Position numbers and translations under genes: made by a program. Positions 1 through 35,986 of a stretch of DNA of 36,242 nt are shown piece after piece. The DNA lies in contig JAICRP010000004.1 of NCBI GenBank assembly GCA_025966445.1, positions 1 to 36,242 of the forward strand. The letters run 5' to 3'. Source of the stretch: Nocardioides sp. (GTDB lineage Bacteria; Actinomycetota; Actinomycetes; Propionibacteriales; Nocardioidaceae). The notes beneath the pieces were generated by a model. It did not search any database. It worked only from the letters and a program-made list of their open reading frames with translations, and was not told the origin of the DNA. The stretch's first letter is position 1, and each line of letters opens with the position of its first letter.

Positions 1-1374
1 CGGCTGGCGAGGCACGAACAGCCCGTGCGGGTCGGCCGTCCCCCGGATCGCGGCCAGCCGACGCCACGAGGCGCCCGACCAGCCCCGGCGCTCGTCGACC
101 TCCTCGTCAGCCATCAGCAGGTACGCCGACTCCGTGGCCCAGGGCTGGAGCGCGTCCGTCACTCGGCGGGAGTCCTCCCGCACCGCCGCCCACCCGCCCC
201 GGCTCTGCAGGCCCACGCCGAGCACCAGGAACGAGCCGTCCACGCGGTCCAGTGCGCCGCCCCTCGGGTGCGGGGCAGCCAACGCCCCACCGAGCTGACG
301 CAGCTCCACGAAGAGGAGCTCCGACCCGGAGTCCGGCCCCGCAGCGGCGACGAGCGCCTCCACCGCGCGGTCAGGGAGGTCTGCCAGGAGGACGCTGTTG
401 GCGTAGACGGCCGTGGGGGCCTCCGGATCCAGGTGGAGGCGCGCGACGGAGCCCGCGGCGACGTCGTCGAAGGTGTCCAGCTCGGGCCGCAGGGCGCGCA
501 ACGGTGCGAGCTGCCGCGCCGCCGTCGATGGGTCCCCGGTGGCGACCGCGTCCACGATCACGAGCTGCCGCCCCCTGACCTCGCCCGGCACCCAGGCCTC
601 GTCGGGCGCCTGGAGGAGTCGGGCGATGCTGGTGATCGTGTGCGGCGCCTCGCCGGCCCATCCGCTCCAGGCGCGCAGCACCCGGTCGGCGTGCCGCCAG
701 TCCCAGGCGAGCGCGCCGGCGTAGACCCGGTGCACCGGCACGAGGTCGAACTCCAGCGCCGTGACGACGCCGAAGCCGCCGCCGCCTCCTCGGGCGGCCC
801 ACAGCAGGTCGCTGTCCGCGGTGTCAGTGGCGCGCACGAACGTGCCGTCTGCCAGCACCAGCTCCACGGCCGTGAGCGCGCTGCACTGCAGGCCCCGCTG
901 GCGCGCGTACCAGCTGAGCCCGCCGCCGAGCGACGAACCGGCGACGCCGACGCTGGGGCTGGTGGTGTGCATGGCCGCCAGCTGCACGCCCGCTGCCCGG
1001 TCGACGACGTCGCCCCAGCGGACACCGGCGCCGACCCGAGCGGTGCGTTGTTCGGCGTCGATGCGCAGCTCGGTCATCGCCGAGGTGCGCAGGAGCACGG
1101 CGTCCTCGAGCCGACCGGCGAGCGGTGGCGCACCGTGGCCGGTGCCCTGCGGGGCGACCCGGAGACCCACCGAGGCCGCCGCTCGCACCACGTCGGCCAC
1201 CTCGGACGGGAACGCCGGGTAGACCACGGCCGCCGGCCGGACGTCGACCTGCAGGTTCCAGGGCAGCCGGACCTCGTCGAAGGATGGATCGCCCGGCAGG
1301 TGGACGGCCCCACCGCACAGCCCACGCAGGACGTCGGCGTCGGATGCCGCCACCGAGGCGGAGTCGGGAACCAT
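1..1374 (-). CDS. FAD-binding oxidoreductase (BBE / FAD_binding_4 type), 3' end outside the window
   Basis: Minus-strand reading from ATG at 1374 gives MVPDSASVAASDADVLRGLCGGAVHLPGDPSFDEVRLPWNLQVDVRPAAVVYPAFPSEVADVVRAAASVGLRVAPQGTGHGAPPLAG..., typical of the family (GTGHG His motif, SLGGGLSW). No in-frame stop before the window edge. Confidence 0.85.
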   Translation of the reverse strand, partial: MVPDSASVAASDADVLRGLCGGAVHLPGDPSFDEVRLPWNLQVDVRPAAVVYPAFPSEVADVVRAAASVGLRVAPQGTGHGAPPLAGRLEDAVLLRTSAMTELRIDAEQRTARVGAGVRWGDVVDRAAGVQLAAMHTTSPSVGVAGSSLGGGLSWYARQRGLQCSALTAVELVLADGTFVRATDTADSDLLWAARGGGGGFGVVTALEFDLVPVHRVYAGALAWDWRHADRVLRAWSGWAGEAPHTITSIARLLQAPDEAWVPGEVRGRQLVIVDAVATGDPSTAARQLAPLRALRPELDTFDDVAAGSVARLHLDPEAPTAVYANSVLLADLPDRAVEALVAAAGPDSGSELLFVELRQLGGALAAPHPRGGALDRVDGSFLVLGVGLQSRGGWAAVREDSRRVTDALQPWATESAYLLMADEEVDERRGWSGASWRRLAAIRGTADPHGLFVPRQP

Positions 1375-1414: not shown

Positions 1415-1432
1415 GACTTGAGGATGACTTGA
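1415..1432 (-). promoter_or_regulatory. Putative SARP operator: TCAAGTC direct repeat with 11-bp periodicity
   Basis: Plus strand GACTTGAggatGACTTGA (1415-1421 and 1426-1432); minus strand TCAAGTC-N4-TCAAGTC, 40 nt upstream of the FAD oxidase ATG. Confidence 0.6.
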
Positions 1433-1444
1433 ACCGACCGCCGG

Positions 1445-4400
1445 TCACGGTCCGCGCTCCAGGGTCGACGCGAGGTCTGCACGCACCGTCCCGGGTGCGA
1501 GGAACAGTCGTTGGGCGACCTCGTTGACTCCTAGCCCGGCTGCGACCAGCTCCGTCACGCGCCGCTGCCGACCGGTCAGCCAGGTGTCGTCGTCGCCGGC
1601 GTCCATGGGCACCCGGCCCCGTCTCGTCAGCTCCGCGACGGCGTCGCTCACCACCGCGCGTGCGCCACACTCGCGGGCCGTGCCGAGCGCCGCCTCCAAG
1701 AGGGCCACGGCCTCGAGGTCGTCGAGCCCTGGCGAGCGTGCGAGCGACACCTGGGCGCGGGCTGCCTCCAGCACGACTCGCGTGTCCGACAGCACGTCCA
1801 CGGCCTCGCGGAGGTCCGCCGTCCCGTCGGCGCCGCGCAGCTCCCCGCGCAGCCGCAGGGAGCGACCCAGCGCCGACGCTGCACCCCAGCCGCGCAGGAG
1901 TGCCACCTCGTCGTCGGCCAACGCGAGGGCACGGTCGGCCTGTCCGAGCGCCGCGAGGGCCTGCGCCTCCAGTCCACGCCACGGGGCCCAGGCCGGGTTG
2001 CGGACCTCGGGGTAGTCGACGGGTGTGGCCAGCACGTCCAGCGCCTCGGCCGGGCGCCCCTCGTCGAGGAGAAACCGGGCGGCGGCCTCTCGCAGCAGCC
2101 GGCCCCCCTCACCGATCCAGGGCAGCTCCCGAGCGCTCACCAGGGTCTCGCTCGCGGCCTCCAGGTCGCCCTGGTCCAGCCGTACGCCCAGCGTGAAGGC
2201 GGCGGCGTACGTCGAGGTGACGGCCGAGACGCCCCACATCCGCTGCTGCTCGGCCGCGTCGACCAACGACTGGAGGGCGTCGTCGAGCCGACCGTGGCGC
2301 CACTGCGTGAAGCCGCGCCACAGGTTCACCGACAGGGCGGCGAAGAGCTCGCCGCCCGCATGTGCGCGGGCCATCGCGCGTTCCCAGAAGTCACCGAGGT
2401 CCTCGTCGGCCAGCAGCAGCACGTTGGCCGCGACGATCCAGAGCAACCCGTTGTCCACGACGAGCAGCCGGTCGTCCTCCAGGGCGAAGCGCGCCAGCGC
2501 GGCTGCCCGATCACGTTCCGTGCCGTCGCGCAGCAGCTCGTACGACAGCGCGGCCGCCAGCATCCGAGCGCCGTTGCCTTCACCGGACACCTCCGGGACC
2601 GGGTCGGCCCGGTAGCGCTCCACGGGGAGCCCGTGCATGAACCCCGTGATTCGCTGCAGGGCAACCAGGCCCTGCCGTTCGTCGTCGAGCCCGGCTCCTG
2701 CCTCGGCCGCGGCCCGCCCAGCGAAGTCGGTGGCCACGCCCGGAGGTGAGACGAAGACGTGGGTACGGGCGATGGCCATCGCGAGCCGGGCGCGCTCCTT
2801 GTCGTCGTCGAGGGTCGAGTAGGCCTCGGACAGGTGCGCGACGCCGGCGGGTCCGTCGACCAGGATCTCGGCGAGGCCCAGCTCGAGCAGCAGGCCGGTC
2901 CTCTCGTCGGCCTCGACGGGCTCCTCCAGTGCCCGCCGCAGGAGCACGACGGCGGAGTCCGACGCCCCACGCGTGCGTGCCGTCCGCGCGGCGGTCCGCA
3001 GCAGGTCCACGGTGGCGGCACTCCCCCGGCGAGGTGCCCGCAGCAGGTGCGCGGCGACCTGTTCGGGGGTGGCTCCCTGGTGGGTGAGGATGCGCGCGGC
3101 CCGCTCGTGGTGCAGTGCACGCTCGGCGGAGGGCATGTCCTCGTACACCGCATCACCGACCAGCGGGTGGACGAAGGTCGGGCGGTGCCCGTCGGTGAGG
3201 ATCTCGCTCCGGCTCAGGCTGTCCAGGGCGGTGGCCACGTGGTCCTCGGGCTGCTGGGCGAGGGAGGCGATGGTCGCCAAGCCCGCGGCCTCACCCAGCA
3301 CCGCGACGGCTCGGGCCGTAGCCGTGGCGGTCCTCGACATCCGGCGCAGGCGCAACGTCACCAGGGCCGACACCGCCCGCGAACCCACCGCGCGCACCGT
3401 GTCGACGTGGGACACGTCCGGGGGGATGTGCTCGTCCTCCAGCGCTCGGAGGAGCTGGCGCAGCAACAGCGGGTTGCCCGCGGTCATCCGGTGGCAGGCG
3501 TCGACGAAGGAGTCGGCGCCGTCACCGAGGCGTTCGCGCACCAGGGCCGCCGCGGCCTCGTGGGACAGCGGCGCCGGCCGCAGCACGGTCACCGACGTGT
3601 CGAGGGCGATCTCGGCGAGCAGCGCGTCGTCGGGATGCTGCTCTCCTGTGCGGAGGGCGAAGACGAGGAGCACGGGCAGCCCCTCGATCCGTTTGACGAG
3701 ATAGGCGAGGTACCGAAGCGACGCGCTGTCACACCACTGGACGTCGTCGACGCAGATCACGAGCGGCCCCTCGGAGGCGAGGTTGACGGTCGTCCAGTAG
3801 AGGCCGTGCAGGACGGCGAAGCCGCCCTGCTGGACGAGGGTGTCGCCCATCGCCCCGTCGAACACCGAGGACGCGGCCACCGCGGCGCCGACGAGCAGTG
3901 CCTCGCGGCGTACCGGGTCGCCGATGCACGGCTCGAACAGCTGCCGCACCGCTCCGAAGGCGAACGAGCGCTCCAGCTGGCTCCCCCGCGCCGAGAGCAC
4001 CCGAGCGCCGCGGCTCCTGGCGAAGCCGCCTGCCTCGAGCAGCAGACGACTCTTGCCGATTCCGGCCGGGCCCTCGATGAGGATGCATCCCGACGCCCCG
4101 GCGACCACGTCGTCCACCATGCGCCGCAGCACCGACGTCTCCTTGTCACGATCCACGAGGTCGAGCGGCACGACGCCGCTCTCATCGCTCACACGGTCGC
4201 CCGTGGCCGGACGAGGTGGCGGAGCCGGGGCGTCCAAGTCGGGCGACTGGGCGAGGACGTGTGCCTCGAGCGCGCGGAGGCCGGGGCCCGGGTCGACGCC
4301 CAGCTCCTCGGCCAGCGTCCTGCGGGCACGGCGCAGGGCCGCGAGGGCGTCGGCCTGACGCTGCGCGCGGTACAGGGCCAGCACCAGGAGCCGCCAGCGC

Positions 4401-5065
4401 TCCTCCCGGAGCGGATCCTCGGAGACGAGCGCCTCGAGGTCACCCACGAGCACCGCGGCGTCGCCCAGCTGCAGCCGGGCCTCGAGCAGCCGTTCGCGGG
4501 CGACGGCACGGAGCTCCGTCAGCCGGACGGTCTCGGGCTCGACCCACACCTCGCCGGCGTACTCGGCGTACGGGGCGCCTCGCCACAGGCGCAGCGCCTC
4601 CTCGAGCGAACGCACCGCATCGGCGGGCGGCAGCGTCGCAGCCTCGCCCACGGCCCGCTCGAAGCACCAGGCGTCCACCATCTCCGGGCCGAGACGGAGC
4701 ACGTAACCAGCGCCGGTGCTCGCGATCACGCCGTCCCGCCGTCGGGCTCCCACGTCCGGCTGGAGGCGACGGCGCAGGTGGCTCACATAGGCCTGGATGG
4801 CGCCGGTGCTGTCGGCCGGGGCGCGGTCGCCCCAGACACAGTCGGCGAGGCGTGCGGCGGGCACGACCTCGTTCCGGCTGACCACGAGTGCCGCCAGCAC
4901 CGCACGCTGGCGCCGGCCGCCGAGGTCGACGACCTCACCATCACGCGTCGCCGCGAGGTCCCCGAGCACCCGCAGGCGGAGCCTCGTGTCCTCCACCCTC
5001 TCCCCCACTCGTGCTCGGTCGAGGATAGCGAAGTCACGAGCTCCGAAAGGGCGCCCAACCTGCAC
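1445..5065 (-). CDS. AfsR/SARP-family regulator: N-terminal OmpR-type wHTH + BTAD, central AAA/P-loop ATPase, C-terminal LuxR-type HTH
   Basis: 1206 aa; LRVLGDLAATRDGEVVDLGGRRQRAVLAALV (SARP wHTH), BTAD region, ILIEGPAGIGKSRLL (Walker A), LTGRQRRVTELVAAGLGVNEVAQRLFLAPGTVRADL (LuxR HTH). A GTG start at 4996 is an alternative. Confidence 0.9.
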   Translation of the reverse strand: MQVGRPFGARDFAILDRARVGERVEDTRLRLRVLGDLAATRDGEVVDLGGRRQRAVLAALVVSRNEVVPAARLADCVWGDRAPADSTGAIQAYVSHLRRRLQPDVGARRRDGVIASTGAGYVLRLGPEMVDAWCFERAVGEAATLPPADAVRSLEEALRLWRGAPYAEYAGEVWVEPETVRLTELRAVARERLLEARLQLGDAAVLVGDLEALVSEDPLREERWRLLVLALYRAQRQADALAALRRARRTLAEELGVDPGPGLRALEAHVLAQSPDLDAPAPPPRPATGDRVSDESGVVPLDLVDRDKETSVLRRMVDDVVAGASGCILIEGPAGIGKSRLLLEAGGFARSRGARVLSARGSQLERSFAFGAVRQLFEPCIGDPVRREALLVGAAVAASSVFDGAMGDTLVQQGGFAVLHGLYWTTVNLASEGPLVICVDDVQWCDSASLRYLAYLVKRIEGLPVLLVFALRTGEQHPDDALLAEIALDTSVTVLRPAPLSHEAAAALVRERLGDGADSFVDACHRMTAGNPLLLRQLLRALEDEHIPPDVSHVDTVRAVGSRAVSALVTLRLRRMSRTATATARAVAVLGEAAGLATIASLAQQPEDHVATALDSLSRSEILTDGHRPTFVHPLVGDAVYEDMPSAERALHHERAARILTHQGATPEQVAAHLLRAPRRGSAATVDLLRTAARTARTRGASDSAVVLLRRALEEPVEADERTGLLLELGLAEILVDGPAGVAHLSEAYSTLDDDKERARLAMAIARTHVFVSPPGVATDFAGRAAAEAGAGLDDERQGLVALQRITGFMHGLPVERYRADPVPEVSGEGNGARMLAAALSYELLRDGTERDRAAALARFALEDDRLLVVDNGLLWIVAANVLLLADEDLGDFWERAMARAHAGGELFAALSVNLWRGFTQWRHGRLDDALQSLVDAAEQQRMWGVSAVTSTYAAAFTLGVRLDQGDLEAASETLVSARELPWIGEGGRLLREAAARFLLDEGRPAEALDVLATPVDYPEVRNPAWAPWRGLEAQALAALGQADRALALADDEVALLRGWGAASALGRSLRLRGELRGADGTADLREAVDVLSDTRVVLEAARAQVSLARSPGLDDLEAVALLEAALGTARECGARAVVSDAVAELTRRGRVPMDAGDDDTWLTGRQRRVTELVAAGLGVNEVAQRLFLAPGTVRADLASTLERGP

Positions 5066-5128
5066 CCTCGCTGACGTGGCGTAGCGACGCGGGCGCGCGG
5101 GCGGGGCCTTGTCGAGATCGCGGGGGCC

Positions 5129-5157
5129 TCAAGTCGGCCACAGGTGGCTCTCAAGAA
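5129..5157 (+). promoter_or_regulatory. Putative SARP operator: three heptamers at 11-bp spacing
   Basis: TCAAGTC(5129)-N4-ACAGGTG(5140)-N4-TCAAGAA(5151), 50 nt before the ATG at 5208; the first heptamer is identical to the 1415-1432 repeat. Confidence 0.5.
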
Positions 5158-5207
5158 CCGCCGGGCACGGTCTTCCCACAGAACCCGACAACACACACGG
5201 AGACACC

Positions 5208-5696
5208 ATGAACACGCGCAGCACCTTCACCACCACCATCGCCGCAGCCATCGCCGCAACCGCGCTCGTGCTCGTCGCCCCGGCGGCACAGGCGACTCAG
5301 GTCGACCGGTTCGACCGCAGCACCTTCGACAGCACTCCGGAGGTGAGCGACGCCGGCTACACGATGGCCGGCGCCACCGCCGGCGAGCTCGGTGGCTACC
5401 TCACCCTCGGGATCCAGGCTTCCGGCGGCACCCTTCCGGAGCAGGGCGACTGTGAGGCCGCCGACGTCCAGGCGGTGCTCACGGTCTCCCCCGGTGAGTC
5501 GTTCACGATCACGACCACGGGCGAGCTCTGCAGCCACTTCATGGACGGCACGCCGAGCCTCAACGCGTACTTCGGCGCCAAGCAGGTGAGCTACACCGGC
5601 ACCCACAGGCACGCCCGCGTCACCAACGGAAGCATCGGCTTCCAGCACACCTTCCTCGGCGCGCAGGGCCAGGTCGGTCTCTCTGTCCGGTGGTGA
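5208..5696 (+). CDS. Secreted hypothetical protein (Sec signal peptide, AxA cleavage motif, two Cys in mature part)
   Basis: MNTRSTFTTTIAAAIAATALVLVAPAAQATQVDRFD...; 162 aa, divergent from the SARP regulator. Confidence 0.8.
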   Translation: MNTRSTFTTTIAAAIAATALVLVAPAAQATQVDRFDRSTFDSTPEVSDAGYTMAGATAGELGGYLTLGIQASGGTLPEQGDCEAADVQAVLTVSPGESFTITTTGELCSHFMDGTPSLNAYFGAKQVSYTGTHRHARVTNGSIGFQHTFLGAQGQVGLSVRW

Positions 5697-5722: not shown

Positions 5723-5941
5723 GACCTCCGCGATCAGGGGAGCTCCCACGCTGCGCGACCTCTACCGCTCCCGGCGAGCGTCGCGCTTCCGGGGTTGGCG
5801 TCGAGAGTGCCTCGCTCCTGACCGGCAGCTCGTGGCGTCTCGGGGGCGCCATGGGACACACAGGGCGGGCAGCTGAGGGTGTGCCGACCGTGGTACAGCG
5901 TGCCGACGTCGGAACGCAGCCAGGAGCGATACGTTCGCGGC

Positions 5942-7531
5942 GTGGAGAGCGTGGAGCCCACCGAGGGCACGGGCCGTGTTCCCCGGCAAGGCATTCTGCT
6001 GGCTGCCGCGATGTTCGTGTTCGTCATCGACACGTCGTTCATGAACGTGTCGATCTCGGCGGTCGTCCACGACCTCGACACGACGGTGAGCGGGGTCCAG
6101 TCGGCCGTCGCGATCGAAGCGCTCGTCTCCGCCGCGTTCATCCTCATCAGCAGCAAGGTCGGTGATCTGTTCGGGCGCAAGCGCGCGTTCGTCGTCGGCA
6201 TGGTGTTCTACGCCGTCGGTGCGCTGGCCATGGTGTTCGCGCAGGGCCTGGCGGCGATCATCGTCTTCTGGGCGGTCCTCGGCGGGCTGGGCGCATCCCT
6301 CTACCTCCCCGCGATGCAGTCGCTGATCCACGGCAACTTCGACGGGAAGACCCGCGCGAAGGTCTTCGCGCTGGTCGGCGCGTCGGGAGCGATCGCCGCC
6401 GCGATCGGACCCCTGATCGGAGGCTTCGTCACGACCCTCCTGTCGTGGCGCGTCGGGTTCCTGATCGAGGCGCTCATCATCGCAGCCGTCCTTCTGGGGA
6501 GCCGAGGCATCCGCGACGTGCCCTACACAGGAGACCGGTCGATCGACATCACGGGCGCGTTCCTCTCAGTGATCGGCATGGGTGGCCTCGTCCTTGGGGT
6601 CCTCGCCTGGCAGGAGGGCGGCGAGTCCGTCGCGCTCCTCCTCGCGATCGGGGCGGCCGCGATGGCGTGCCTGGTGTGCTGGCTCGTCCGACGCAAGCGC
6701 CAGGGCAAACCCACGCTCCTCGATCCCACCCTGTTCGCGTCCAAGCTGTTCAGCAACGGCGTCGCCCAGATCATGCTCCAGCAAGTCGCGCTGGGCGGGC
6801 TCCTGATCGCCTTGCCGATCTACCTGCAGCTCGTCTGGGGCTACAACGCGCTCGAGGCGGGCATCACGCTCGCACCCCTGTCGCTCACGATGTTCGGCGT
6901 CGCCCTGCTCGCGGGACGCAGAGCTGGTCGTCGGAGGGCGAGCAGCATCATCAGGGCGGGCTTCGTGCTGCTCGCTGCCTCCATCGTCACCCTCATCCCG
7001 CTGGTGCCCAGAGCGGACTCCGGCTGGTACCTGGTGGTCCCGCTGATGCTCGCGGGCGCCGGGCTCGGCCTTCTCGCATCTCAGCTCAACAACTACGCAC
7101 TGTCCCCCATCTCGGAGGAACGGGTTGGCGAGGCCGCCGGCGTCACGTCGGCCACCGGGTCCTTCGGTCTGTCGCTCGGGCTGGCCTTCTCCGGGGCCAT
7201 CATGCTCGCCACGCTGTCCATCGCCTTCACCAACATGGCGGAGTCGAGCAGCGTCTTGCCGCCGGCCGACCAGCAGCGCGTCGCCGCCGTGCTCGAAGAC
7301 GACGCGCAGGTGATGAGCGACGCCCAGCTCGGCGAGCTCCTCGTCGGCCAGCCGGAAGCTGTCCAAGAGGAGATCCTCAGCATCAACACCGACGCTCGGA
7401 ACCTCGCGCTCCAGGTTGCCTTGCTCGTCTCGCTGCTCGCGGCGGTCGTCGGCGTCGCCATCGCATTCCGCATGATGCGCCTGCCCGATCCCGTGCAGAC
7501 GGCTGCCGGCAAGGACGCAGGGCTCGGCTGA
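5942..7531 (+). CDS. MFS transporter (DHA2-like drug/multidrug efflux family)
   Basis: ~529 aa, many TM segments; VGDLFGRKRAFVVGMVFYAVGALAMVFAQG motif region. GTG start at 5942 preceded by TACGTT -10-like hexamer at 5930-5935. Confidence 0.85.
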   Translation: MESVEPTEGTGRVPRQGILLAAAMFVFVIDTSFMNVSISAVVHDLDTTVSGVQSAVAIEALVSAAFILISSKVGDLFGRKRAFVVGMVFYAVGALAMVFAQGLAAIIVFWAVLGGLGASLYLPAMQSLIHGNFDGKTRAKVFALVGASGAIAAAIGPLIGGFVTTLLSWRVGFLIEALIIAAVLLGSRGIRDVPYTGDRSIDITGAFLSVIGMGGLVLGVLAWQEGGESVALLLAIGAAAMACLVCWLVRRKRQGKPTLLDPTLFASKLFSNGVAQIMLQQVALGGLLIALPIYLQLVWGYNALEAGITLAPLSLTMFGVALLAGRRAGRRRASSIIRAGFVLLAASIVTLIPLVPRADSGWYLVVPLMLAGAGLGLLASQLNNYALSPISEERVGEAAGVTSATGSFGLSLGLAFSGAIMLATLSIAFTNMAESSSVLPPADQQRVAAVLEDDAQVMSDAQLGELLVGQPEAVQEEILSINTDARNLALQVALLVSLLAAVVGVAIAFRMMRLPDPVQTAAGKDAGLG

Positions 7532-7571
7532 CAAGTAGCGCGCTCCTGCAACGATGGCTGCACGACTGCGA

Positions 7572-8603
7572 TCAGCTCGCGGATGCCAGGCCGTCCACCT
7601 CGCGGATCGCGTTGGCGATCACGTGGGGCACCACGGGCTCCATGACGTGTGGCGCTTCGACCCAGCGGAGGATGCCGGGCGAGAACCGGTCGGCGAAGGC
7701 CGCCTGGGCGTCGAGGATCCTGGCGTCGTACGCAGGTGACCCGTAGTCGTTCACGGTTCGAGGTTGCCACTTTGCAGCGAGGTAGACGGCGGGGATGTCC
7801 GGTTCTCGTCCGATGGTGGACTGGAGGGACCGGATGAGGTCGAACTGCGAGATGCGCTCCAGCGTGCAGCACTCGTCCTCCTTGTCGAAGTGCTTGAACG
7901 TGTGCTGCCGCGGAAGGTAGCGGTCCAGCCCCAGCTCGTCGGGGAACATGGCGTCGACGAAGACCACCCCGATCACGTCGTCGGGGTGTGCCTTCAGATA
8001 GGCCGAGGCCACCAGTCCCCCGAACGAGGCAGCCCACAGGATGTACGGCGGCTTCTCGCCGCCGGCCTTCAGGACCGCGCGCATGTCGCGAACCACATCC
8101 CGAGGCGTCTGGACCGCGTCCACGGTCTCACTCGAGCCCACGTTGCGTCGGTCGTAGAGGCACACCCGGAAGTCGTCGACGAGCCGGTCGCGGACTTCAG
8201 TGGCATGGTCGTGAGGGACGAAGGCATCGTCGATCCAGCCGTGCACGAACACCACGGTCGAGGGTCCGTCGCCTGCGCACGACATGTACAGCTTGTGCCC
8301 GCCGACGTCGTACATGCCGGTCGTATCGGTATCGGGGTTGCTCGCCGTCGGGGACTCGGCGGCGGACGGAGACCGACGAGGAGAAGCGCTGCCGGCGGCC
8401 CCAGACGTCTCTGCGCCCCCGCTGCAGCCGGCGAGGCCGATGATGAGCAGCACGGCCGAGATGCCGACCGCGAGCCCGACCGTGGGCCGCCGGCGACGTG
8501 CACGGAACCGGGGGCGGGGCCGCGTCTCGCCACCTCCCAGGTGTGCCCCGCCATCCGCATTCGCGGTGACGAGGGTCAGCTCTACCGGGTCGGACGCCGG
8601 CAT
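7572..8603 (-). CDS. Alpha/beta-hydrolase, membrane-anchored/lipoprotein
   Basis: MPASDPVELTLV... with TM + LAGC lipobox-like motif, VVFVHGWIDDAF, LWAASFGGLVAS nucleophile-elbow-like region; AAAGGAG SD 4 nt before the ATG at 8603. Confidence 0.8.
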   Translation of the reverse strand: MPASDPVELTLVTANADGGAHLGGGETRPRPRFRARRRRPTVGLAVGISAVLLIIGLAGCSGGAETSGAAGSASPRRSPSAAESPTASNPDTDTTGMYDVGGHKLYMSCAGDGPSTVVFVHGWIDDAFVPHDHATEVRDRLVDDFRVCLYDRRNVGSSETVDAVQTPRDVVRDMRAVLKAGGEKPPYILWAASFGGLVASAYLKAHPDDVIGVVFVDAMFPDELGLDRYLPRQHTFKHFDKEDECCTLERISQFDLIRSLQSTIGREPDIPAVYLAAKWQPRTVNDYGSPAYDARILDAQAAFADRFSPGILRWVEAPHVMEPVVPHVIANAIREVDGLASAS

Positions 8604-8942
8604 GTTGCTCCTTTCACGCTCAGTCACCACGTGGCAGCCGGGCGACTCTCCACACCACGTCGTAGACGTCCTTGTCGTCGATGGTCCCGGCTCGCTCCAG
8701 AGGCACCGAACTCGCTCTCGTCCCGCCGCCCCATCCCACCTCCCGCCGCCGCTCCTTCCCTACCAACGAGGTGTCGACACCAGCAGGTTGCACGCACGCG
8801 ATACCCCTCGCGAGGCTTCATGCCCAGAATTGCCAGGAAAGCTCCGGTGAGTCCCGAGGGCCGTACACGGCCGAGGTGAGCTGCGGCGGCCCGAGGGGGC
8901 GGATCTGCTCTCGAGCCGGACGAGCGCACCGCTGAGCGAGTC

Positions 8943-13898: not shown

Positions 13899-15299
13899 TC
13901 AGTCCGGTGGGATGGCTTGTCCGCTCGGGGGTCGAAAGACGTTGGTGGGGTCGTAGCTGGCCTTGATCGTACGGAGGCGTGGCAGGTTGCTGCCGTAGTA
14001 CGCCTCGGCGGGCATGGCGAGGTCCAGGTCGGGGAAGGCGGGAAAGACCCCGCCCGATCCCCATGGATGCACGGTTTCCCACGACCGCCGCACGAACGCG
14101 AGGGCGGCGTCCTTGGCTGCGGCGGGCGCGTCGGGGCGGACGGCGCACGAGTGCTTGAGCTGGAACATCTGGTCGCGGTGGACGAAGGCGGTCGCGTCGG
14201 CGGCGACCCGGTTGTAGGCCCCGCCCCAAGGCATGAAGTCGAGCTCGCGCTCCTCCCCGGCGACCCGATCCCGGGTGAGCCCCTCGACCACCGCGGCAAC
14301 CGTGCCCGTCGGGATCGGTCGGCGGAAGAACTCGGACCGGATGGCCAGCCAGGGGTGGCTCCCGGTGGGAGGGACGATGTCGTGGTACGGCGTCCCGGGA
14401 GGAGGCAACTGGGCCCAGAGCTGCCGGGTCCCGGCGAACGGCAGGACCTCGGCCCAGCGCCAGGCAGGTTCGGCACCGACCCGGTCTCGAAGGTCGTCGA
14501 GGACGTGGGTCCCGTCCGAGTCGCCGACCAGGTGGACACCGTAGACGTTGACGCTGGGTGGCTCGGCCGGGTCGCCGGTGGCAATCACCTTGAGGCTGGC
14601 GGCGAGCTCGTCGGGCCCCGACGGCGCCCAGGTCTGCCAGGCCTCCACGACGTCGACTGCCTTGTCGAAGTCCCACGCGAGGTGGAAGTTGACGGCGTGC
14701 TGCACGGGAACTGTGCGAAACAGGAACGACGTCACCACGCCGAAGCCGGCGGCGCCGGCCCCACGCAGCGCCCAGAAGAGATCCGCCTCACGCCGCTCGT
14801 CGCACGTGACGACACTGCCGTCAGCCAACACGAGCTGCGCCGAGACCATCCGGTCGCTCGTGAGTCCGTAGCGGCGACCGAGCACGCCCAGGCCCCCGCC
14901 CAGCGCCAGCCCGGCGATCCCGACGGTGGGACAGGTCCCGGCGGGAAGGGCACGGCCGTCCAGCTCGAGGCGGTCGTTGACCGCACCCAGGCGCGCGCCG
15001 GCACCGACCGTGACCAGGTCGCCGTCCGGCGCAACGAGGCCCATCGGCGTGACGTCGAGCACGACCCCGGGGCTCGACGAGGTGCCGGCGAAGCAGTGGC
15101 CGCCGCTTCGTACGGCGAACGGCACGTCATGGAGGCGAAGGAACGACAGCGTCGCCGCCACATCGGCCGGCGACGTACACCAGACCGCCGCCCGAGGACG
15201 AACGTCGTGGAACCGGGCGTTGAACGTGGTCGGCTCGGGGTCGGGCACGACGCGGCCGTCGACGGCCGCCTGCAACCGGCGCCAATCCGGACTCGGCAT
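13899..15299 (-). CDS. FAD-binding oxidoreductase (BBE family), possible bicovalent flavin
   Basis: RSGGHCFAGTSSSPG (His) and GTCPTVGIAGLALGGGLG (Cys) motifs, C-terminal YGSNLPRLRTIKASYDPTNVFR; start ATG 15299 (MPSPDWRRL). Confidence 0.9.
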   Translation of the reverse strand: MPSPDWRRLQAAVDGRVVPDPEPTTFNARFHDVRPRAAVWCTSPADVAATLSFLRLHDVPFAVRSGGHCFAGTSSSPGVVLDVTPMGLVAPDGDLVTVGAGARLGAVNDRLELDGRALPAGTCPTVGIAGLALGGGLGVLGRRYGLTSDRMVSAQLVLADGSVVTCDERREADLFWALRGAGAAGFGVVTSFLFRTVPVQHAVNFHLAWDFDKAVDVVEAWQTWAPSGPDELAASLKVIATGDPAEPPSVNVYGVHLVGDSDGTHVLDDLRDRVGAEPAWRWAEVLPFAGTRQLWAQLPPPGTPYHDIVPPTGSHPWLAIRSEFFRRPIPTGTVAAVVEGLTRDRVAGEERELDFMPWGGAYNRVAADATAFVHRDQMFQLKHSCAVRPDAPAAAKDAALAFVRRSWETVHPWGSGGVFPAFPDLDLAMPAEAYYGSNLPRLRTIKASYDPTNVFRPPSGQAIPPD

Positions 15300-15362
15300 C
15301 ACCACCGTTGGAAAGTACCGCCCTCGGCGGCCACCCCCCATTCTTCTGGGGCCACCCAGCAA

Positions 15363-16440: not shown

Positions 16441-17553
16441 ATGACCGTCCTGGAGTCGGAGCGGGAGACCGAGCGCGTCACCAGCGCAGCGGGAGGAGCG
16501 CCTCTGCGGATCGGCCCGTTGTCGTGGCTGGTGCCCCTGCGGGCCGGACTCGTCTGCGTCCTCGGCCTGGCCGTGCTCCTCGCCCTGGTCGCGGTGGACC
16601 TCGCCGTCGGCGACTTCCCGATCCCCGTGCCCGACGTGGTGCGCACGCTGCTCGGCGGCGGCGACGCCGGCCAGCGTTTCGTGGTGATGGAGCTGCGCCT
16701 GCCCCAGACCGTCGTCGCGGTGGCCGTCGGAGTGGCCCTCGGCCTGGCCGGCGCCCTCACCCAGACCGTTGCTCGCAACGCGCTCGCGAGCCCCGACATC
16801 CTCGGCGTCACCGACGGTGCCGCGCTGGCGGCCGTGGCCGTGATCGTGGTGGCCGGCGGCAGCGGGTACGGCGGTGGCCTGGTCACCGGATCGCTGCAGG
16901 AGATGGGGTTGCCGCTCGCGTCCTTCGTGGGGGCGATGAGCACCGCCGCCCTGCTGTACGTCCTCTCGTGGCGCCGCGGCCTCGACATCCAGCGGCTGGT
17001 CCTGGTGGGCATCGGCCTGAGCGCGACCCTGACGGCGGCCACGGCCTACCTCCTCGTCAACGCCCGCATCCAGGACGCGGCCAGCGCACAGGTCTGGCTG
17101 AGCGGGTCGCTGACCTCGCGCGGCTGGGAGCACGCCCGTCCCGTGGTGCTGACGCTGCTGGTCGCGGCGCCCGTCGCCCTGCTGCTCGTCCGCTCGCTGA
17201 ACGCGATGCTGCTGGGCGACGACACAGCCCGCACCCTCGGCCTGCGCCTGCAGCTCACCCAGCTCGCGGTGCTGGTGGTCGCGGTGGCCCTCACCTCGGT
17301 GGCGGTCGCGGCCGTCGGGCCGCTGGAGTTCGTGGCGTTCGTGGTGCCGCAGGTGGCCCTGCGGCTCACGGGTGGCTCCCGGCCACCGCTGCTCGCGGCC
17401 ATGGTGCTGGGAGGCATCCTCGTGGTCGGCGCCGACCTGGTCACCCGGGGCCTGCTGCCGTTCGCGCTCCCCGCCGGCGTCGTCACCGCGGCGATCGGGG
17501 CGCCGTACCTGATCTGGCTGTTGATCCGCACCAACCGGAAGAGGTCCGCATGA
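16441..17553 (+). CDS. FecCD-family iron-siderophore ABC transporter permease (second subunit)
   Basis: LRLPQTVVAVAVGVALGLAGALTQTVARNALASPDILGVTDGA; 5 bp after the preceding gene. Confidence 0.93.
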   Translation: MTVLESERETERVTSAAGGAPLRIGPLSWLVPLRAGLVCVLGLAVLLALVAVDLAVGDFPIPVPDVVRTLLGGGDAGQRFVVMELRLPQTVVAVAVGVALGLAGALTQTVARNALASPDILGVTDGAALAAVAVIVVAGGSGYGGGLVTGSLQEMGLPLASFVGAMSTAALLYVLSWRRGLDIQRLVLVGIGLSATLTAATAYLLVNARIQDAASAQVWLSGSLTSRGWEHARPVVLTLLVAAPVALLLVRSLNAMLLGDDTARTLGLRLQLTQLAVLVVAVALTSVAVAAVGPLEFVAFVVPQVALRLTGGSRPPLLAAMVLGGILVVGADLVTRGLLPFALPAGVVTAAIGAPYLIWLLIRTNRKRSA

Positions 17554-18341
17554 GCTCGTCACGCCTGGGCGCGGAGGGCGTCACCATCGGCTACGGCGGA
17601 GAGCCGGTCGTCCGCGATCTGACCCTCGACCTTCCCGACGGCCTGGTGACCACCGTCGTCGGACCCAACGGCTGCGGCAAGTCGACCTTGCTGCGGACCC
17701 TGGCGCGACTGCTCAAGCCTGCCGGCGGGACGGTGCGGCTGGACGGCGAGCCCATCGACGCCGTGTCCACGCGCGAGGTCTCCCGTCGGCTGGCCCTGCT
17801 CCCCCAGAGCCCGGTGGCGCCTGACGGCCTGCTCGTCCGCGACCTGGTGGGTCGCGGCCGGCACCCGCACCAGCGCTGGTTCCGCCAGTGGTCGCCCGAC
17901 GACGAGATGGTCGTCGAGGCCGCGTTGCGGACGACCGACACCTGGGACCTGCGCGACCGGGCCCTCGACGAGCTCTCCGGCGGGCAGCGGCAGCGGGCGT
18001 GGATCGCGATGACGCTGGCTCAGGACACCGACCTGGTCCTGCTGGACGAACCCACCACCTTCCTCGACCTCGCCCACCAGGTCGAGGTGCTCGACCTCGT
18101 GACCCGGCTGAACCGCGAGCGCGGCCGCACCGTGGTGATGGTGCTCCACGACCTCAACCTGGCGGCCCGCTACAGCGACCTCGTCGTGGTCATGAAGCAG
18201 GGCGCGGTGGTCCTGCAGGGGCCGCCGCGCGAGGTGTTCACCGAGGCGCTGCTGGAGGACGTCTTCGGCCTGCGCGCCGACGTCCTCGACGACCCCCGCA
18301 GCGGTCTCCCGGTCGTGGTCCCCGTCTCCGCCGGGGTGTAG
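17550..18341 (+). CDS. Iron-siderophore ABC transporter ATP-binding protein
   Basis: VVGPNGCGKSTLLRTLARLL (Walker A), LSGGQRQRAWIAMTLAQDTDLVLLDEPTTFLD (signature/Walker B); ATGA overlap with the permease. Confidence 0.95.
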   Translation: MSSSRLGAEGVTIGYGGEPVVRDLTLDLPDGLVTTVVGPNGCGKSTLLRTLARLLKPAGGTVRLDGEPIDAVSTREVSRRLALLPQSPVAPDGLLVRDLVGRGRHPHQRWFRQWSPDDEMVVEAALRTTDTWDLRDRALDELSGGQRQRAWIAMTLAQDTDLVLLDEPTTFLDLAHQVEVLDLVTRLNRERGRTVVMVLHDLNLAARYSDLVVVMKQGAVVLQGPPREVFTEALLEDVFGLRADVLDDPRSGLPVVVPVSAGV

Positions 18342-18351
18342 CCCCGAAGCG

Positions 18352-19389
18352 TCAGGCGGCGGGCGCGGGCACCTGGGTGGCCGGGTCGCCGTCGACCGCT
18401 GCGGCCAGCTGGGGCACGTAGCGCTCCAGCACGTACGGGATGCTCAGCGGCGTCACGAAGCTGTGGGCCACGTAGTAGTCGCCGTCGTCGGAGCTGATGT
18501 CGAACCACCGACCCTCGGCAGCCGTCGTGGTCTGGTCGAACACCTTCTTCACGGCCGGGTCGGCCTCGAGGTCCAGCCAGACCGCCACGTCGATCTTGTC
18601 CAGGTCGGAGGTCCGCTCGGCGCTCACCGAGGTGCCGAACTCCTCGCCCTCGCCACCGAACTCGTCGGTCGGGAACTCGAAGCCGAGGTCGACGAGCATC
18701 CGCGACCGGGGGTCCTCCGGGCCGTAGATGAACAGACCCTCGTACGGCGTGACCACCATGGCCGTCCTGCCGGCGAAGTCGGGGTTGGCCGCGGCGGCGT
18801 CCGCGATCTGCTGCTTGACCCCGTCGATGATCTCCTGCATCTGGTCGGGCCGACCGACGGCCTTTCCGATGGTCAGCGCCATCTCGTCCCAGGGTGCGCC
18901 GTAGTCGGCGTGGTCGCCGGACTGGGCCACCGTCGGTGCGATCTTCGAGAGCAGCTCGTAGTCCTTCTCGGTGAGCCCGGAGTACTGCCCGATGATCAGG
19001 TCGGGCGCCAGGGCGGCCACCTTCTCGACCTGGACACCGTTGCTGTCCTCGAGCACGTCGGGGAGCTCGGCGTCGCCCAGCTTGTCGACGGCCCAGGAGA
19101 AGATGTAGCCCGGGGCGTCCCCGAACCACTTGGTGACCGCGACCGGCACGATGCCCAGCGCGAGCAGCGCGTCCTGCTCGGTCAGGCCCACGCACACCAC
19201 GCGGCTCGGGGCCTTCTCCAGGGTGGTCTCGCCGTACTTGTGGGTGATGGTCACGGGGAACGCGCCCGCGGCCTCGGGGGCCGGCTCGTCGGTGCCGCTG
19301 GTGGTCTCGTCCTGGCCGCAGGCGGCGAGCAGCGGCGCGACGGCCAACGCGGAGAGGCCGGCGAGGAGATGACGGCGGGTGGGCTTCAT
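18352..19389 (-). CDS. Iron-siderophore ABC transporter substrate-binding lipoprotein
   Basis: MKPTRRHLLAGLSALAVAPLLAACGQDE (Tat-like + lipobox), PBP-type SBP pattern APSRVVCVGLTEQDALLALGIVPVAV; SD AGGAG. Confidence 0.92.
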   Translation of the reverse strand: MKPTRRHLLAGLSALAVAPLLAACGQDETTSGTDEPAPEAAGAFPVTITHKYGETTLEKAPSRVVCVGLTEQDALLALGIVPVAVTKWFGDAPGYIFSWAVDKLGDAELPDVLEDSNGVQVEKVAALAPDLIIGQYSGLTEKDYELLSKIAPTVAQSGDHADYGAPWDEMALTIGKAVGRPDQMQEIIDGVKQQIADAAAANPDFAGRTAMVVTPYEGLFIYGPEDPRSRMLVDLGFEFPTDEFGGEGEEFGTSVSAERTSDLDKIDVAVWLDLEADPAVKKVFDQTTTAAEGRWFDISSDDGDYYVAHSFVTPLSIPYVLERYVPQLAAAVDGDPATQVPAPAA

Positions 19390-19596
19390 GGGTGCTCCTG
19401 TGGGGACGGGTCGGGGTGGATCAGGACGGGTGCTCCCGCGGCGCCTCGCCGCGGGTGGCCACCTCGAGCTGGGGCGTCAGCTGCTCCAGCACGTGCTGGA
19501 GGCCGAGCGGGTGCCGAAGCAGGTGGCTCCGGCGAGGACCCGGTTTCCGCGTTCATGGGCCCCCCTCGGGTGCGACCATCGCTCGTCGCCGCGAAG

Positions 19597-19615
19597 TAAG
19601 GTTAGGCTAACCTAA
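19597..19615 (+). promoter_or_regulatory. DtxR/IdeR-type iron box (SIP / SBP divergent region)
   Basis: TAAGGTTAGGCTAACCTAA, one mismatch to consensus; 4 nt before ATG 19620. Confidence 0.92.
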
Positions 19616-19619
19616 TCAC

Positions 19620-20564
19620 ATGGCGATCACGACGTCACCCCCGTCCACGCAGCAGCCCAGGCGGTGCCCCGTGGGTGACGCACCTGACCAGCGCGTGTTC
19701 CGCGCCGAGGTCGTGCGGGTCGAGGACCTCTCCGCGTCGCTGCGGCGCATCGTCTTCGGCGGCCCCGACCTGGCGGGGTTCGCGAGCAGCGGCTCACCCG
19801 ACGAGTACCTCCGCGTCGTCGTGCCGGCCCCCGGCCGGACCGAGCCCGTGCTGCCCACGGTCGTCGACGGCCTCCTCGACTACGGCTCGATCGACATGGA
19901 CCTGCTGCGCACCTACACGGTCCGGCGCCACGACCCCGACGCCGGCGAGGTGACCATCGACTTCGTGCTGCACGACCACGGCGTGGTCACCGCCTGGGCG
20001 CGGGCGGCGGATCCGGGTGCCGTGGTCGGCCTCAACCTGCCGACCGGCATGTACGACGCCCCGACCGACCTGGCCTGGCAGGTGCTCGTGGCCGACTGCG
20101 CCGCCCTGCCCGCGCTGGCCCGGGTGCTCGAGCAGACACCCTCCGACGTCCGCACCCGGGTGGTGGTCGAGATCCCCGGCGACGAGCACCGCATCGACCT
20201 GCCCGCGCACCCGCGGACCGAGGTCACCTGGGTCCACGGTGGCAACGGGCACCGGCCCAGCCGCCTGGAGGACGTCGTCCGCGCCCTGCCCCACCCCGAT
20301 GCGCCCGGCGGCTACGTCTGGGTCGCCGGAGAGGCGCGCGCCCTGCGTGGTGTGCGCCGTTACCTGCGCCGGGAGCTGGGGCTACCCGCCTCGCGCTACA
20401 AGGCCGTCGGCTACTGGATCGAGCGCGCCGAGGAGTGGAACCAGCGCTACGACGCCCTCGACGAGGACACCCGTCGTTCGCTCGAGGCGATGTGGAGCGA
20501 GGACCGCCCCGAGGAGGACATCGAGAGCGACTACGACGAGCGGCTGGCCGCACTGGGACTGTGA
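19620..20564 (+). CDS. Siderophore-interacting protein (SIP/ViuB-type FAD-dependent ferric reductase)
   Basis: LRTYTVRRHDPDAGEVTIDFVLHDHGVVTAWARAADPGAVVGL..., VWVAGEARALRGVRRYLRRELGLPASRYKAVGYWIE. Confidence 0.94.
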   Translation: MAITTSPPSTQQPRRCPVGDAPDQRVFRAEVVRVEDLSASLRRIVFGGPDLAGFASSGSPDEYLRVVVPAPGRTEPVLPTVVDGLLDYGSIDMDLLRTYTVRRHDPDAGEVTIDFVLHDHGVVTAWARAADPGAVVGLNLPTGMYDAPTDLAWQVLVADCAALPALARVLEQTPSDVRTRVVVEIPGDEHRIDLPAHPRTEVTWVHGGNGHRPSRLEDVVRALPHPDAPGGYVWVAGEARALRGVRRYLRRELGLPASRYKAVGYWIERAEEWNQRYDALDEDTRRSLEAMWSEDRPEEDIESDYDERLAALGL

Positions 20565-24525: not shown

Positions 24526-27462
24526 GTGGCTTCACGTACGGATCCAGGTGATACTCAGGCAGTGCGGGGCCTTCTGTGCCGAGAGCTGATCGGGCGCGAT
24601 CACGTCCTCGACACAGCCCGCACGGCGCTGGCCGATGCCCAGCGAGGCGCCGGAGGCGTGGTCTTCGTCAGCGGGGAGGCGGGCGTCGGCAAGTCGAGGT
24701 TGGTGGGCGAGATCGTCACCGGCGCCCGCGACTCAGGCGTGCAGGTGCTCTTCGGCCGCGCCGTGCAGGCCGACGTACCCGTGCCCTTCCGGCCGTTCTC
24801 CGAGGCCTTGCTCTCGCACTTCCGCAACCAGGGACTGCCCGACCTGCCAGGGTTGTCACCGTTCCGGCCCGCCCTGGGCAGGCTGCTGCCGGAGTGGCGG
24901 ACGCCCGGAGAGACGACCCACGAGCCACCGGTGGTGCTCGCCGAGGGAGTGGTACGGCTCCTCACCGCGGTGGCCGCCGAGTCCGCCGTGCTGCTGGTGC
25001 TCGAGGACCTCCACTGGGCGGACCCGGAGACGTTGGCCGTGCTCGAGTACCTCGTCGACGCACTCCGGACCCAGCCCGTGCTGTGCGTCGCGACCGTGCG
25101 GTCCGAGGAGGCCAGCGCGGCGCTCCGCATGCTGCAGGGTCTCAGGGCAGCCCGGACGGCGACCGTCCTGGAGCTCGAGGCGCTGGCGACCGACGACCTC
25201 GGGCGGATGACGGCCGCGTGCCTGGGCTCGGACGACGTCCCGAGCGGGGTGGTGGAGTACGTCCGGACCTGGTCCGACGGGCTGCCGTTCATGGTGGAGG
25301 AGGTGCTCGCCGGCGCCGTCGGCGCGGGGGCGCTCGCGTGGGACGGTGACCGCTGGTCGTTCGACACCGAGGCCGGCCCGTCGTTGCCGGTGAGCTTCGT
25401 GGACAGCGTCCGCGGCCGGCTGCGCGGGCTCGGCCCCGAGCCGGCGCGCTTGCTCCAAGTGGCGGCCGTCCTGGGGCGACGCTTCGACTGGACGCTGCTG
25501 CCTGCGGCAGCGCAGGTGTCCGACCTCGACGTGATGGCGGCGCTCCGCGCCGGTGTCGACGCGCAGCTCCTGGTCGCCGAGCCCGGGGCGCAGTTCCGCT
25601 TCCGGCACGCCCTGACCCGGGACGCCGTGCTCGACGACCTGCTGCCCGCCGAGCGCGGGCTCGTCTCCGGCGCCGTCCGCGACACGGTCGAGGCCGCGCA
25701 CCCGGGCCTGGCCGGCCAGTGGTGCGACGTGGCGGCCGGCCTGGCCGAGCGCTCCGGGCAGCGCGAGCGCGCAGCCGCCCTGCTCCTGGAGCTCGCGCGC
25801 CGGTCCCTGGCGGCGGGGGCGCTGGGCTCCGCCGAGCAGATCCTCGACCGGGCCAGGACGGCGACGACCGATGCGGTGCTCGAAACCGACATCGACGAGG
25901 TCGCCGCGGAGGTCCTGGCGCTGGCCGGGAAGACCGACCAGGCGATCGTCGTCGGCTCGCGCGTGGCCCACCAGCTCCGGGTCATCGACGGCCCGGCCGC
26001 CCGGCGTACGAACGCCCACCTCGGCGTCGCCCGGGCAGCCGTGACGGCGTGCGTGTGGGACATCGCCGACGAACACCTCGCCCGCGCACGCGAGTGCGCG
26101 GCCGAGGCGGCGGACGACGACCTGAGCGCCCGCGTCGACACCGTGGCCGCGCAGTCCGCGCTCGGGCAGGGTCAGCCGGAGGCCGCGCTGCCGCTGGCCG
26201 AACGGGCCCTCGCCACCGCAGAGTCGCTCGGCGACCACGAGCTGGCGTGCGAGGCACTCGAGGTCGTCGGTCGCTGCTGGCGGCTCAGTTCCGTTGCGGC
26301 GAGCGAGAAGGCGTTCGACCGTGCGCGCGTGATCGCGGAGACGCACGGGCTCACGCTGTGGCGCACCCGCGCGATGAGCGAGCTTGCCTGGCTGGACACC
26401 CTGAGCGGGGGCAGCGAGGAGCGGCTGCGGAGCGCTCACGAGCAAGCCCTGGCGTGTGGGGCCTGGGGCATCGCCGCCCACCTCGAGCTCGCCCACGGCC
26501 AGTGGTTCCTGCTGCGGTTTCGGATGGACGAGAGCATCTCGCGACTGCGGCGCAGCGCGGAGCTCGCCGAGCGCCTCGGCATGCCCTTGCTGCTGGCGAT
26601 CGCGCATGCCTCGGAGCTGTTGGTGCAGGCCGTGCTGGGGCGTGCCGACGCGGCCGAGCGGTCGGCTCGGGCGGCCAGGGCGGCGGTCAGCGACGAGCCG
26701 GGCATGAACGGGATGGTGTGGGCCGGGCTCGGGATGCTGGCGCTGGTCGAGGAGGACCTCGACACGACGCGGGACCACTTCGCGCGCGCGAACGAGGAGT
26801 TCGCCCGGCTGCCGACGACCCCACAGGACCCGACCCGGGGCCTCAGCGTGCTGTTGTCCGTGCTCGACTCGACCAGCCCCGAGGAGGCGGCGGCGCTGAT
26901 CGCCGCGGCCGACACCGCTGACGCGGCGATGACCTACCAGGCTCGCGGGTACCTCCGGTTCGCGCGAGCCGTGGCGCTCGGCCGGGCCGGCCGCCGTACC
27001 GAGGCCGAAGCGGAGCTCGCCGAGGGGGAGGAGCTGCTGCGCGTGATGGCGGACGGGTGGGTGCACCACGGCTTCCGTCTCGCCGCCCCGGCGGCCATCG
27101 ACGACGGCTGGGGTGACCCGGACCGCTGGCTGCTGGAGACGCTGGGCGGCTTCGAGGACCGCGGACTCACGCGGGGCGCCGATGCGGTGCGGGCGTTGCT
27201 CCGCGGCGCCGGCATCCCCGTACCACGCCGCGGACAGGCGGCCCCCGGGCTTCCCGCGCCCTGGGCGTCGGCCGGGGTGACGGTCCGAGAAGCCGAGGTG
27301 CTGGTGCTGCTGGCCGATGGCCTGACCAACCGCGAGATCGCCGAGCGCGTGTTCCTGTCGCCACGCACGGTCGAGCGGCACCTGGCCAACGTCGGCACCA
27401 AGCTCGGCACGCGGACCCGCTCCGAGCTCGTGGCCATGGCGGCCCGGGAGACCGCCGGCTAA
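24526..27462 (+). CDS. LuxR-family LAL-type regulator (AAA ATPase + C-terminal HTH)
   Basis: ELIGRDHVLDTART...GGVVFVSGEAGVGKSRLVGEI (Walker A), LLVLEDLHWADPETL, VREAEVLVLLADGLTNREIAERVFLSPRTVERHLANVGTKLGTRTRSELVAMA. Confidence 0.93.
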   Translation: MASRTDPGDTQAVRGLLCRELIGRDHVLDTARTALADAQRGAGGVVFVSGEAGVGKSRLVGEIVTGARDSGVQVLFGRAVQADVPVPFRPFSEALLSHFRNQGLPDLPGLSPFRPALGRLLPEWRTPGETTHEPPVVLAEGVVRLLTAVAAESAVLLVLEDLHWADPETLAVLEYLVDALRTQPVLCVATVRSEEASAALRMLQGLRAARTATVLELEALATDDLGRMTAACLGSDDVPSGVVEYVRTWSDGLPFMVEEVLAGAVGAGALAWDGDRWSFDTEAGPSLPVSFVDSVRGRLRGLGPEPARLLQVAAVLGRRFDWTLLPAAAQVSDLDVMAALRAGVDAQLLVAEPGAQFRFRHALTRDAVLDDLLPAERGLVSGAVRDTVEAAHPGLAGQWCDVAAGLAERSGQRERAAALLLELARRSLAAGALGSAEQILDRARTATTDAVLETDIDEVAAEVLALAGKTDQAIVVGSRVAHQLRVIDGPAARRTNAHLGVARAAVTACVWDIADEHLARARECAAEAADDDLSARVDTVAAQSALGQGQPEAALPLAERALATAESLGDHELACEALEVVGRCWRLSSVAASEKAFDRARVIAETHGLTLWRTRAMSELAWLDTLSGGSEERLRSAHEQALACGAWGIAAHLELAHGQWFLLRFRMDESISRLRRSAELAERLGMPLLLAIAHASELLVQAVLGRADAAERSARAARAAVSDEPGMNGMVWAGLGMLALVEEDLDTTRDHFARANEEFARLPTTPQDPTRGLSVLLSVLDSTSPEEAAALIAAADTADAAMTYQARGYLRFARAVALGRAGRRTEAEAELAEGEELLRVMADGWVHHGFRLAAPAAIDDGWGDPDRWLLETLGGFEDRGLTRGADAVRALLRGAGIPVPRRGQAAPGLPAPWASAGVTVREAEVLVLLADGLTNREIAERVFLSPRTVERHLANVGTKLGTRTRSELVAMAARETAG

Positions 27463-35600: not shown

Positions 35601-35986
35601 CGCAGGAAGGTCGCGCCGTCGCTGGCGTCGCTCATCGTCAGGCGCAGCTCGTCGACCTCCTCCGGGGTCAACCCGAACTCGCCCTGGTGAGCCTTGAGGT
35701 AGGCGCGCGCGATCGCGTCCGGTGCGTCGTTGCTGGCCTTGGTCAGGGCGCCGTGTTCGGCGACCTTCAGGACGCTGGGCGCCCCGGCTTTGCCGTAGCG
35801 GCCGTCCTGGTCCGGCAGGCCCGCCTGGCCCGGCTCACTCGTGTCCGGGTCCTGCTGCTGCTTCTGGGCCACGGCCGACGGCGATCCGGACGCCGGCGGG
35901 CCCAACGCCACGATCGGCACGGCAACGCTCAGTGCCACGGTGGCCACCGCGGCCACGGAGAGACGTGTGGACATGATCGAGTTCAT
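32618..35986 (-). CDS. M36-family (fungalysin-like) secreted metalloprotease with PKD-like repeats
   Basis: Signal peptide, FTP-like propeptide, IIHEYTHGISGRI zinc motif, PKD-like repeats (DGTYTVTVEVTDDDSG; ATHAYSDACAYDLDVTVSDDDLGSS). Confidence 0.93.
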   Translation of the reverse strand: MNSIMSTRLSVAAVATVALSVAVPIVALGPPASGSPSAVAQKQQQDPDTSEPGQAGLPDQDGRYGKAGAPSVLKVAEHGALTKASNDAPDAIARAYLKAHQGEFGLTPEEVDELRLTMSDASDGATFLRYQQVSGGRDVFGGTGLVTVDGRGRVLLASSSFVSGAGAADVARLTAGDAVALVADAVAPHEDAERARRLGAQDGTVTFENTLAVPDYAGAPVAAELVTVGTAEGPRTAWQVQADRASNASYVVLVDAVTGEVLVRQNQVSEDNQGTVFQGEDPEAGGRSQITFPAGWATAGDTTSGNNVNAYQDAEGDNSAQADDQPHDADRHWNYAWNNPWGASVAGAEADLPLTGADRDAVVTQLFYYTNWYHDYAYDLGFTETARNFQNDNFGLGGSGGDAVEAESDANFTGQQCDSGGNPVKCLNNANFNANGADGTKPRMQMYVGDTNPGGMARRTQRANNRDTIIHEYTHGISGRIVSDGNLAGGIQSSSLGEGWSDAFATSINDDPVYGEYNNGDYTNGIRGVAYDDDSLEYGDFAGTSEHNNGRIWAMNMWEVRAALIAKYGAATGKDKHERLMMLGLKNTADTPSFHDARTGYLVADSIQNPTATAGVGANWCRLWFVFADNELGVTAASDPDTANAGSITVSTDTPDECDPGAAIAPVGDRPEGSDIVFDGTGSTAGGDAGDALSYAWDLDNDGAYDDSTSATPTWAFGDNGAHTVGLQVSNASGYSDTTSVSFNTTNVVPTVTVDLADLAGMEENETRTVAASFVDPGWQDTYSGNVDLGTSYRPDVDPAVAVTTQGAKGPGDTGGATADQGTATAQVTYGDDGTYTVTVEVTDDDSGTGSDDAQATVANVDPTSVIDTSGEQVYDGVSAFILEAGEDLTVPASSEDPGSDDLTFVWDWDGALTGETPDEQTSLNDAGVDPDPALSPSIHPRNVSLEATHAYSDACAYDLDVTVSDDDLGSSTDSAVVLVTGNATESKGHGWWLNQYRPKGQTFDDATLQCYLDIVNYLSLVFSEGKDADSRADATLVLQDPAKSPADVIFDQHALGAWLNFANGSVELDTPVDSVGGPAPDTTFGAVMFAAETIRMNPASTEAQIKAQKDIVERIATQSAP

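Follow-up and report, generated by a model that had tools for sequence, protein, structure and literature searches.

The TCAAGTC heptamer repeats on either side of a large SARP-LAL regulator in Nocardioides sp. are very probably operators of this adjacent regulator, which would activate a FAD-linked oxidase (oxidase 1), a gene for a secreted protein where it is present, and a second FAD oxidase (oxidase 2). We favour this reading because the sequences, their conservation, the promoter geometry and the co-occurrence with regulator and targets agree. On sequence grounds the locus is a genuine conserved SARP regulon, with a known mechanism and a scope broader than three genes, and its compact target set is, provisionally, apparently undescribed. 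To our knowledge, SARPs have been studied almost only within Streptomyces antibiotic clusters. In the window, i.e., the whole stretch of 36,242 nucleotides that was analysed, the locus comprises:

1 to 1374, minus strand: oxidase 1, FAD-linked (mitomycin radical oxidase/EncM-like), with a FAD_binding_4 domain; truncated by the contig end
1401 to 1406, minus strand: predicted -10 hexamer CACCCT of site B, 8 nt past the last heptamer
1415 to 1432, minus strand: site B, predicted SARP operator of two heptamers (TCAAGTC-ATCC-TCAAGTC) upstream of oxidase 1
1445 to 4996, minus strand: SARP-LAL regulator with winged helix and BTAD, STAND-type AAA, TPR-like region and incomplete LuxR HTH
5129 to 5157, plus strand: site A, predicted SARP operator of three heptamers (TCAAGTC-GGCC-ACAGGTG-GCTC-TCAAGAA)
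5166 to 5171, plus strand: predicted -10 hexamer CACGGT of site A, 8 nt past the last heptamer
5208 to 5696, plus strand: small secreted protein of 162 aa with a signal peptide and two conserved Cys

Re-reading the DNA reproduced exactly the repeat sequences, coordinates and distances given in an earlier note on this stretch: site B precedes the start codon of oxidase 1 (ATG 1374) by 40 nt, and site A precedes that of the secreted protein (ATG 5208), which is divergent from the regulator, by 50 nt. All three copies of TCAAGTC in the 36-kb window fall within sites A and B. From base composition, the exact double of site B is expected 2.5e-5 times per window, and the 2.83-Mb genome assembly of the source strain contains no other match even when one mismatch is allowed. 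Site A alone is at chance level, with two window matches against 1.47 expected at up to three mismatches. Hence, its credibility derives from conservation in relatives and not from window statistics.

The regulator is a SARP by its N-terminal OmpR-type winged helix (Trans_reg_C) followed by BTAD, both above cut-off, and a SARP-LAL (SARP plus LAL/STAND ATPase) by an AAA_16 match above cut-off in the 1183–1206-aa protein. Its N-terminal SARP part matches the structures of AfsR and EmbR, and against the AfsR equivalog NF053617 it scores 144.8 bits, below the curated cut-off of 1430. The match to the LuxR helix (GerE) is incomplete and covers 41 of 57 positions. The earlier note had described a SARP of 1206 aa; the identity stands, but the length is probably too great. 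From the stop at 1445, the longest open reading frame reaches GTG 5065 and encodes 1206 aa. Relatives begin at a GTG equivalent to window position 4996, and GTG 5065 is therefore probably 23 codons too early, which would place the start at GTG 4996 and give a protein of about 1183 aa.

Scanning 84,980 species genomes with oxidase 1 yielded 80 loci from Nocardioides, Agromyces, Geodermatophilus, Dactylosporangium, Frankia, uncultured actinomycetes and others. Of the 25 SARP-linked loci, 23 have near-consensus doubles at an 11-bp pitch immediately upstream of oxidase 1, compared with one of 53 loci without a SARP neighbour (Fisher p 2e-16, a descriptive value, as the rows share ancestry and some loci come from genomes already in the first set). 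The two SARP-linked exceptions (L088 and L134) score below the threshold, and degenerate CAAG triplets are visible by eye in both. Every one of the ten loci with the secreted gene has site A, and all fourteen without the gene lack the site; the best triple score is at least 15/21 in the former and at most 12 in the latter (this comparison omits L074, where the contig ends). The sites thus recur in the loci of relatives, a check that the earlier note had asked for, and these counts for sites B and A support its claim that the repeats are predicted SARP operators facing both neighbours.

The claim of a three-gene system, in contrast, has to be given up. The order in all ten fetched loci is regulator, site B, oxidase 1, site C, oxidase 2; in these relatives oxidase 2 lies directly downstream of oxidase 1 and has its own three-heptamer site C, whereas the contig of the window ends inside oxidase 1. 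Searching the 58%-complete assembly of the source genome did not find oxidase 2 (the best hit, at 38%, is oxidase 1 itself), as expected from the incompleteness of the assembly and the position of the contig end. In the source strain, oxidase 2 and its site C would lie beyond that end. Nor is the secreted gene a fixed member: at least 14 loci lack both the gene and its site, and it is an optional, Nocardioides-restricted addition to the regulon. That the repeats flank the regulator is true of the window and fails in a clade of short regulators, where the operator of the oxidase falls within the final codons of the regulator gene. Membership was also considered for the MFS and hydrolase genes at 5942–8630 and rejected, as they have no homolog in the ten syntenic loci.

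The arrangement relative to the promoter is uniform. In an alignment of 51 sites (10 A, 23 B and 18 C), chosen by their heptamers and not by the hexamer, the CAAG core is nearly invariant and nAnnnT lies exactly 8 nt past the last heptamer in every site, while any other offset up to 24 is seen in at most 15; the -10-like hexamer reads CAnnnT in 44. According to the published rule, SARP operators have repeats at 11 or 22 bp and a 3' repeat 8 bp from the -10 element (PMC10936776), and the sites conform to both parts, with direct repeats at an 11-bp pitch and the last repeat 8 bp from the -10-like hexamer. Chance repeats, or coding constraint where site B and the 3' end of the regulator overlap, have next to no likelihood as an explanation: the short-regulator clade and G067 do have site B within the coding sequence of the regulator, and site A alone does not exceed chance in the window, but site B is still conserved past the regulator stop in the window and in G075, so that coding constraint fails, sites A and C are intergenic, and the 8-nt spacing is kept throughout.

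The full motif including the -10 has 24 matches in 14 Nocardioides genomes, 22 of them at the regulator locus, and a reversed control pattern has none in the same genomes. The two off-locus matches adjoin other SARP-LAL genes (L190:5129 in G296 and L191:7803 in G017), and the site in G296 faces a gene for an MMPL-type membrane protein. Since both adjoin SARP-LAL genes, the same grammar probably serves further regulators of this type in the genus, and Nocardioides may thus have a general NCAAG code for its SARP-LALs. Near-restriction of the motif to the regulator locus within each genome, and the way in which, across oxidase homologs, the motif before oxidase 1 goes together with the regulator, make it improbable that a different SARP from elsewhere in the genome binds the sites and that the neighbour is merely linked, although similar NCAAG operators accompany other SARP-LALs of the genus and a site occurs in G296, where no regulator ortholog is close.

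The adjacent regulator thus remains the preferred candidate, and its domains differ among relatives. Full-length orthologs occur in the same genus (68% and 53%), as does a set of orthologs of about 625 aa that consist of the SARP and ATPase parts only. In a tree of the SARP-ATPase part the short regulators form one clade with a support of 100/100, which amounts to a single loss of the C-terminal half; in this tree, the 'long' label of L038 stems only from an upstream-extended open frame and L083 is a broken frame. The LuxR helix has been lost separately in two further lineages, L070 and L102. Because this helix was lost repeatedly while the sites stay intact, the N-terminal SARP winged helix must be the putative reader of the sites. 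Binding of the repeats by the regulator's own LuxR-type helix at the C-terminus would agree with the presence of a GerE match in the window, yet this match is incomplete, the helix is missing in the 625-aa regulators, L070 and L102, whose sites are intact, and direct repeats at 11 bp that end 8 bp before the -10 are the signature of SARPs (PMC10936776). We regard this alternative as very unlikely.

With the SARP domain as reader, monomers would sit next to each other on heptamers spaced by one turn of the helix (11 bp), and the heptamers would stand in for the -35 element. The last heptamer lies 8 bp before a weak -10, and bound SARP would thereby recruit RNA polymerase, as for AfsR (PMC10936776). 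The regulator would switch on oxidase 1 via site B, the secreted protein, where present, via site A, and oxidase 2 via site C, which is seen in relatives. Presumably, the STAND ATPase part makes activation dependent on a signal. The output would be a small regulon of a covalent-flavin-type oxidase pair, joined in some Nocardioides by a secreted beta-rich partner. We infer binding, activation, signal gating and a role of the oxidases on an aromatic or quinone-like molecule from these comparisons.

The sites resemble those of the Streptomyces regulators PimR, SanG and PolR, which are likewise heptameric direct repeats with 4-nt spacers, arranged as doublets or triplets with a CAAG core. PimR is a SARP-LAL that also has no C-terminal LuxR HTH, and its heptamers, grouped in twos and threes with 4-nt spacers between them, share a CAAG core and have the consensus CGGCAAG (PMC5930380). 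However, the register and flanks of the heptamer differ (TCAAGTC here), and the predicted targets are two flavin oxidases and a secreted protein instead of a PAS-LuxR gene or a peptidyl-nucleoside cluster. Moreover, the sites lie 8 nt from the -10, whereas the main operator of PimR does not overlap the -35. In Streptomyces coelicolor, AfsR is similarly a SARP plus NOD (plus TPR) protein with a homologous DNA-binding domain, and the afs box has 11-bp repeats over the -35 region, the last one 8 bp from the -10 (PMC10936776). AfsR is global with one well-studied target, afsS, in contrast to the motif described here, which is almost confined to one locus per genome. A literature search, with most subscription journals outside its scope, found no publication joining Nocardioides and SARPs and none on a TCAAG SARP heptamer.

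The oxidases are flavin oxidases by FAD_binding_4 matches above cut-off and retain the invariant His80 in GTGHG, possibly the FAD attachment residue. Over their full length, the nearest solved structures of oxidases 1 and 2 are mitomycin radical oxidase (9r43) and EncM, both distant, so that the substrate is not transferable. Their best NCBIfam matches are BagK/FevA1 and BagG/FevA2; oxidase 1 (262 bits) and oxidase 2 of G075 (365 bits) score below the cut-off of 800 for BagK/FevA1 (NF041226). The fev/bag and gri clusters have FAD-dependent oxygenases of the same broad family (BagK/BagG, FevA1/A2 and GriA) beside SARP genes, two of them in bag/fev (PMC6692506). In contrast to these clusters, the oxidases here score far under the curated cut-offs, the SARP is large (LAL type), and 3,4-AHBA pathway genes were not seen among the conserved neighbours. 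A further FAD-linked oxidase with a BBE domain is encoded at 13902–15362 of the window on the minus strand and has 37% identity to oxidase 1; no TCAAGTC site lies near it.

Mitomycin radical oxidase, EncM and BagK/FevA-type enzymes have aromatic or quinone-like metabolites as substrates. As these related enzymes act on such metabolites, we see a roughly even chance that the oxidases here oxidise a small molecule of this kind, either in a synthesis or in self-protection. It is conceivable, if somewhat less than probable, that the locus represents an old stand-alone SARP regulon present in many actinomycete families without a recognisable biosynthetic cluster. It would then control a two-oxidase pathway for a small molecule that is made or detoxified, its sensor half would have been shed repeatedly, and the secreted protein would have been recruited later via a SARP promoter.

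The secreted protein has no Pfam or NCBIfam match, contains two cysteines that are invariant across its homologs, and is confined to Nocardioides among the 397 genomes of the order that were sampled. An AlphaFold model based on ten homologs is beta-rich at low confidence (pLDDT 64) and has no significant Foldseek match; an allene oxide cyclase barrel (prob 0.87, TM 0.39, E 0.07) was not accepted. G296 encodes an unlinked homolog (L157:7411–7980) that has its own TCAAGTC-N4-CCAAGCG-N4-CCAAGTC-N8-GACGCT with the correct 8-nt spacing; in this genome a close regulator ortholog was not found (best 37%), nor an oxidase pair near the secreted homolog.

A regulon outside Streptomyces with a one-line promoter code (TCAAGTC at an 11-bp pitch, 8 nt, nAnnnT) and three target promoters makes SARP recognition and the function of two orphan oxidases directly testable. 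The role of the STAND half becomes testable as well, with close relatives that have this half, have a truncated form of it or lack it. Further SARP-LAL targets can be found with the same code, as the off-locus matches next to SARP-LAL genes illustrate.

Several minor observations concern the regulator of relatives and the remainder of the window. In N. flavus (L083:5144–5957), the regulator frame is broken near 5835 by a frameshift or an assembly error, and the three sites are intact. Members of the short clade (L034–L041) have in common a motif that resembles an inverted repeat and reads about TGCCCAAATTCGGGGCA on the strand of the regulator; it lies upstream of the regulator start and precedes the regulator's own -10-like TATCCT/TACGCT. 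The motif, which was not seen in the window, may be a site for a controller of the regulator itself. Elsewhere, the window contains a siderophore uptake cluster (16441–20561) of a FecCD permease, a periplasmic binding protein and a siderophore-interacting protein, and a second large ATPase regulator of the LAL type (24526–27459) with a complete LuxR helix and without a SARP domain. At 32621–35986 it encodes a large M36 fungalysin-type metallopeptidase with a PKD domain and a propeptide motif.
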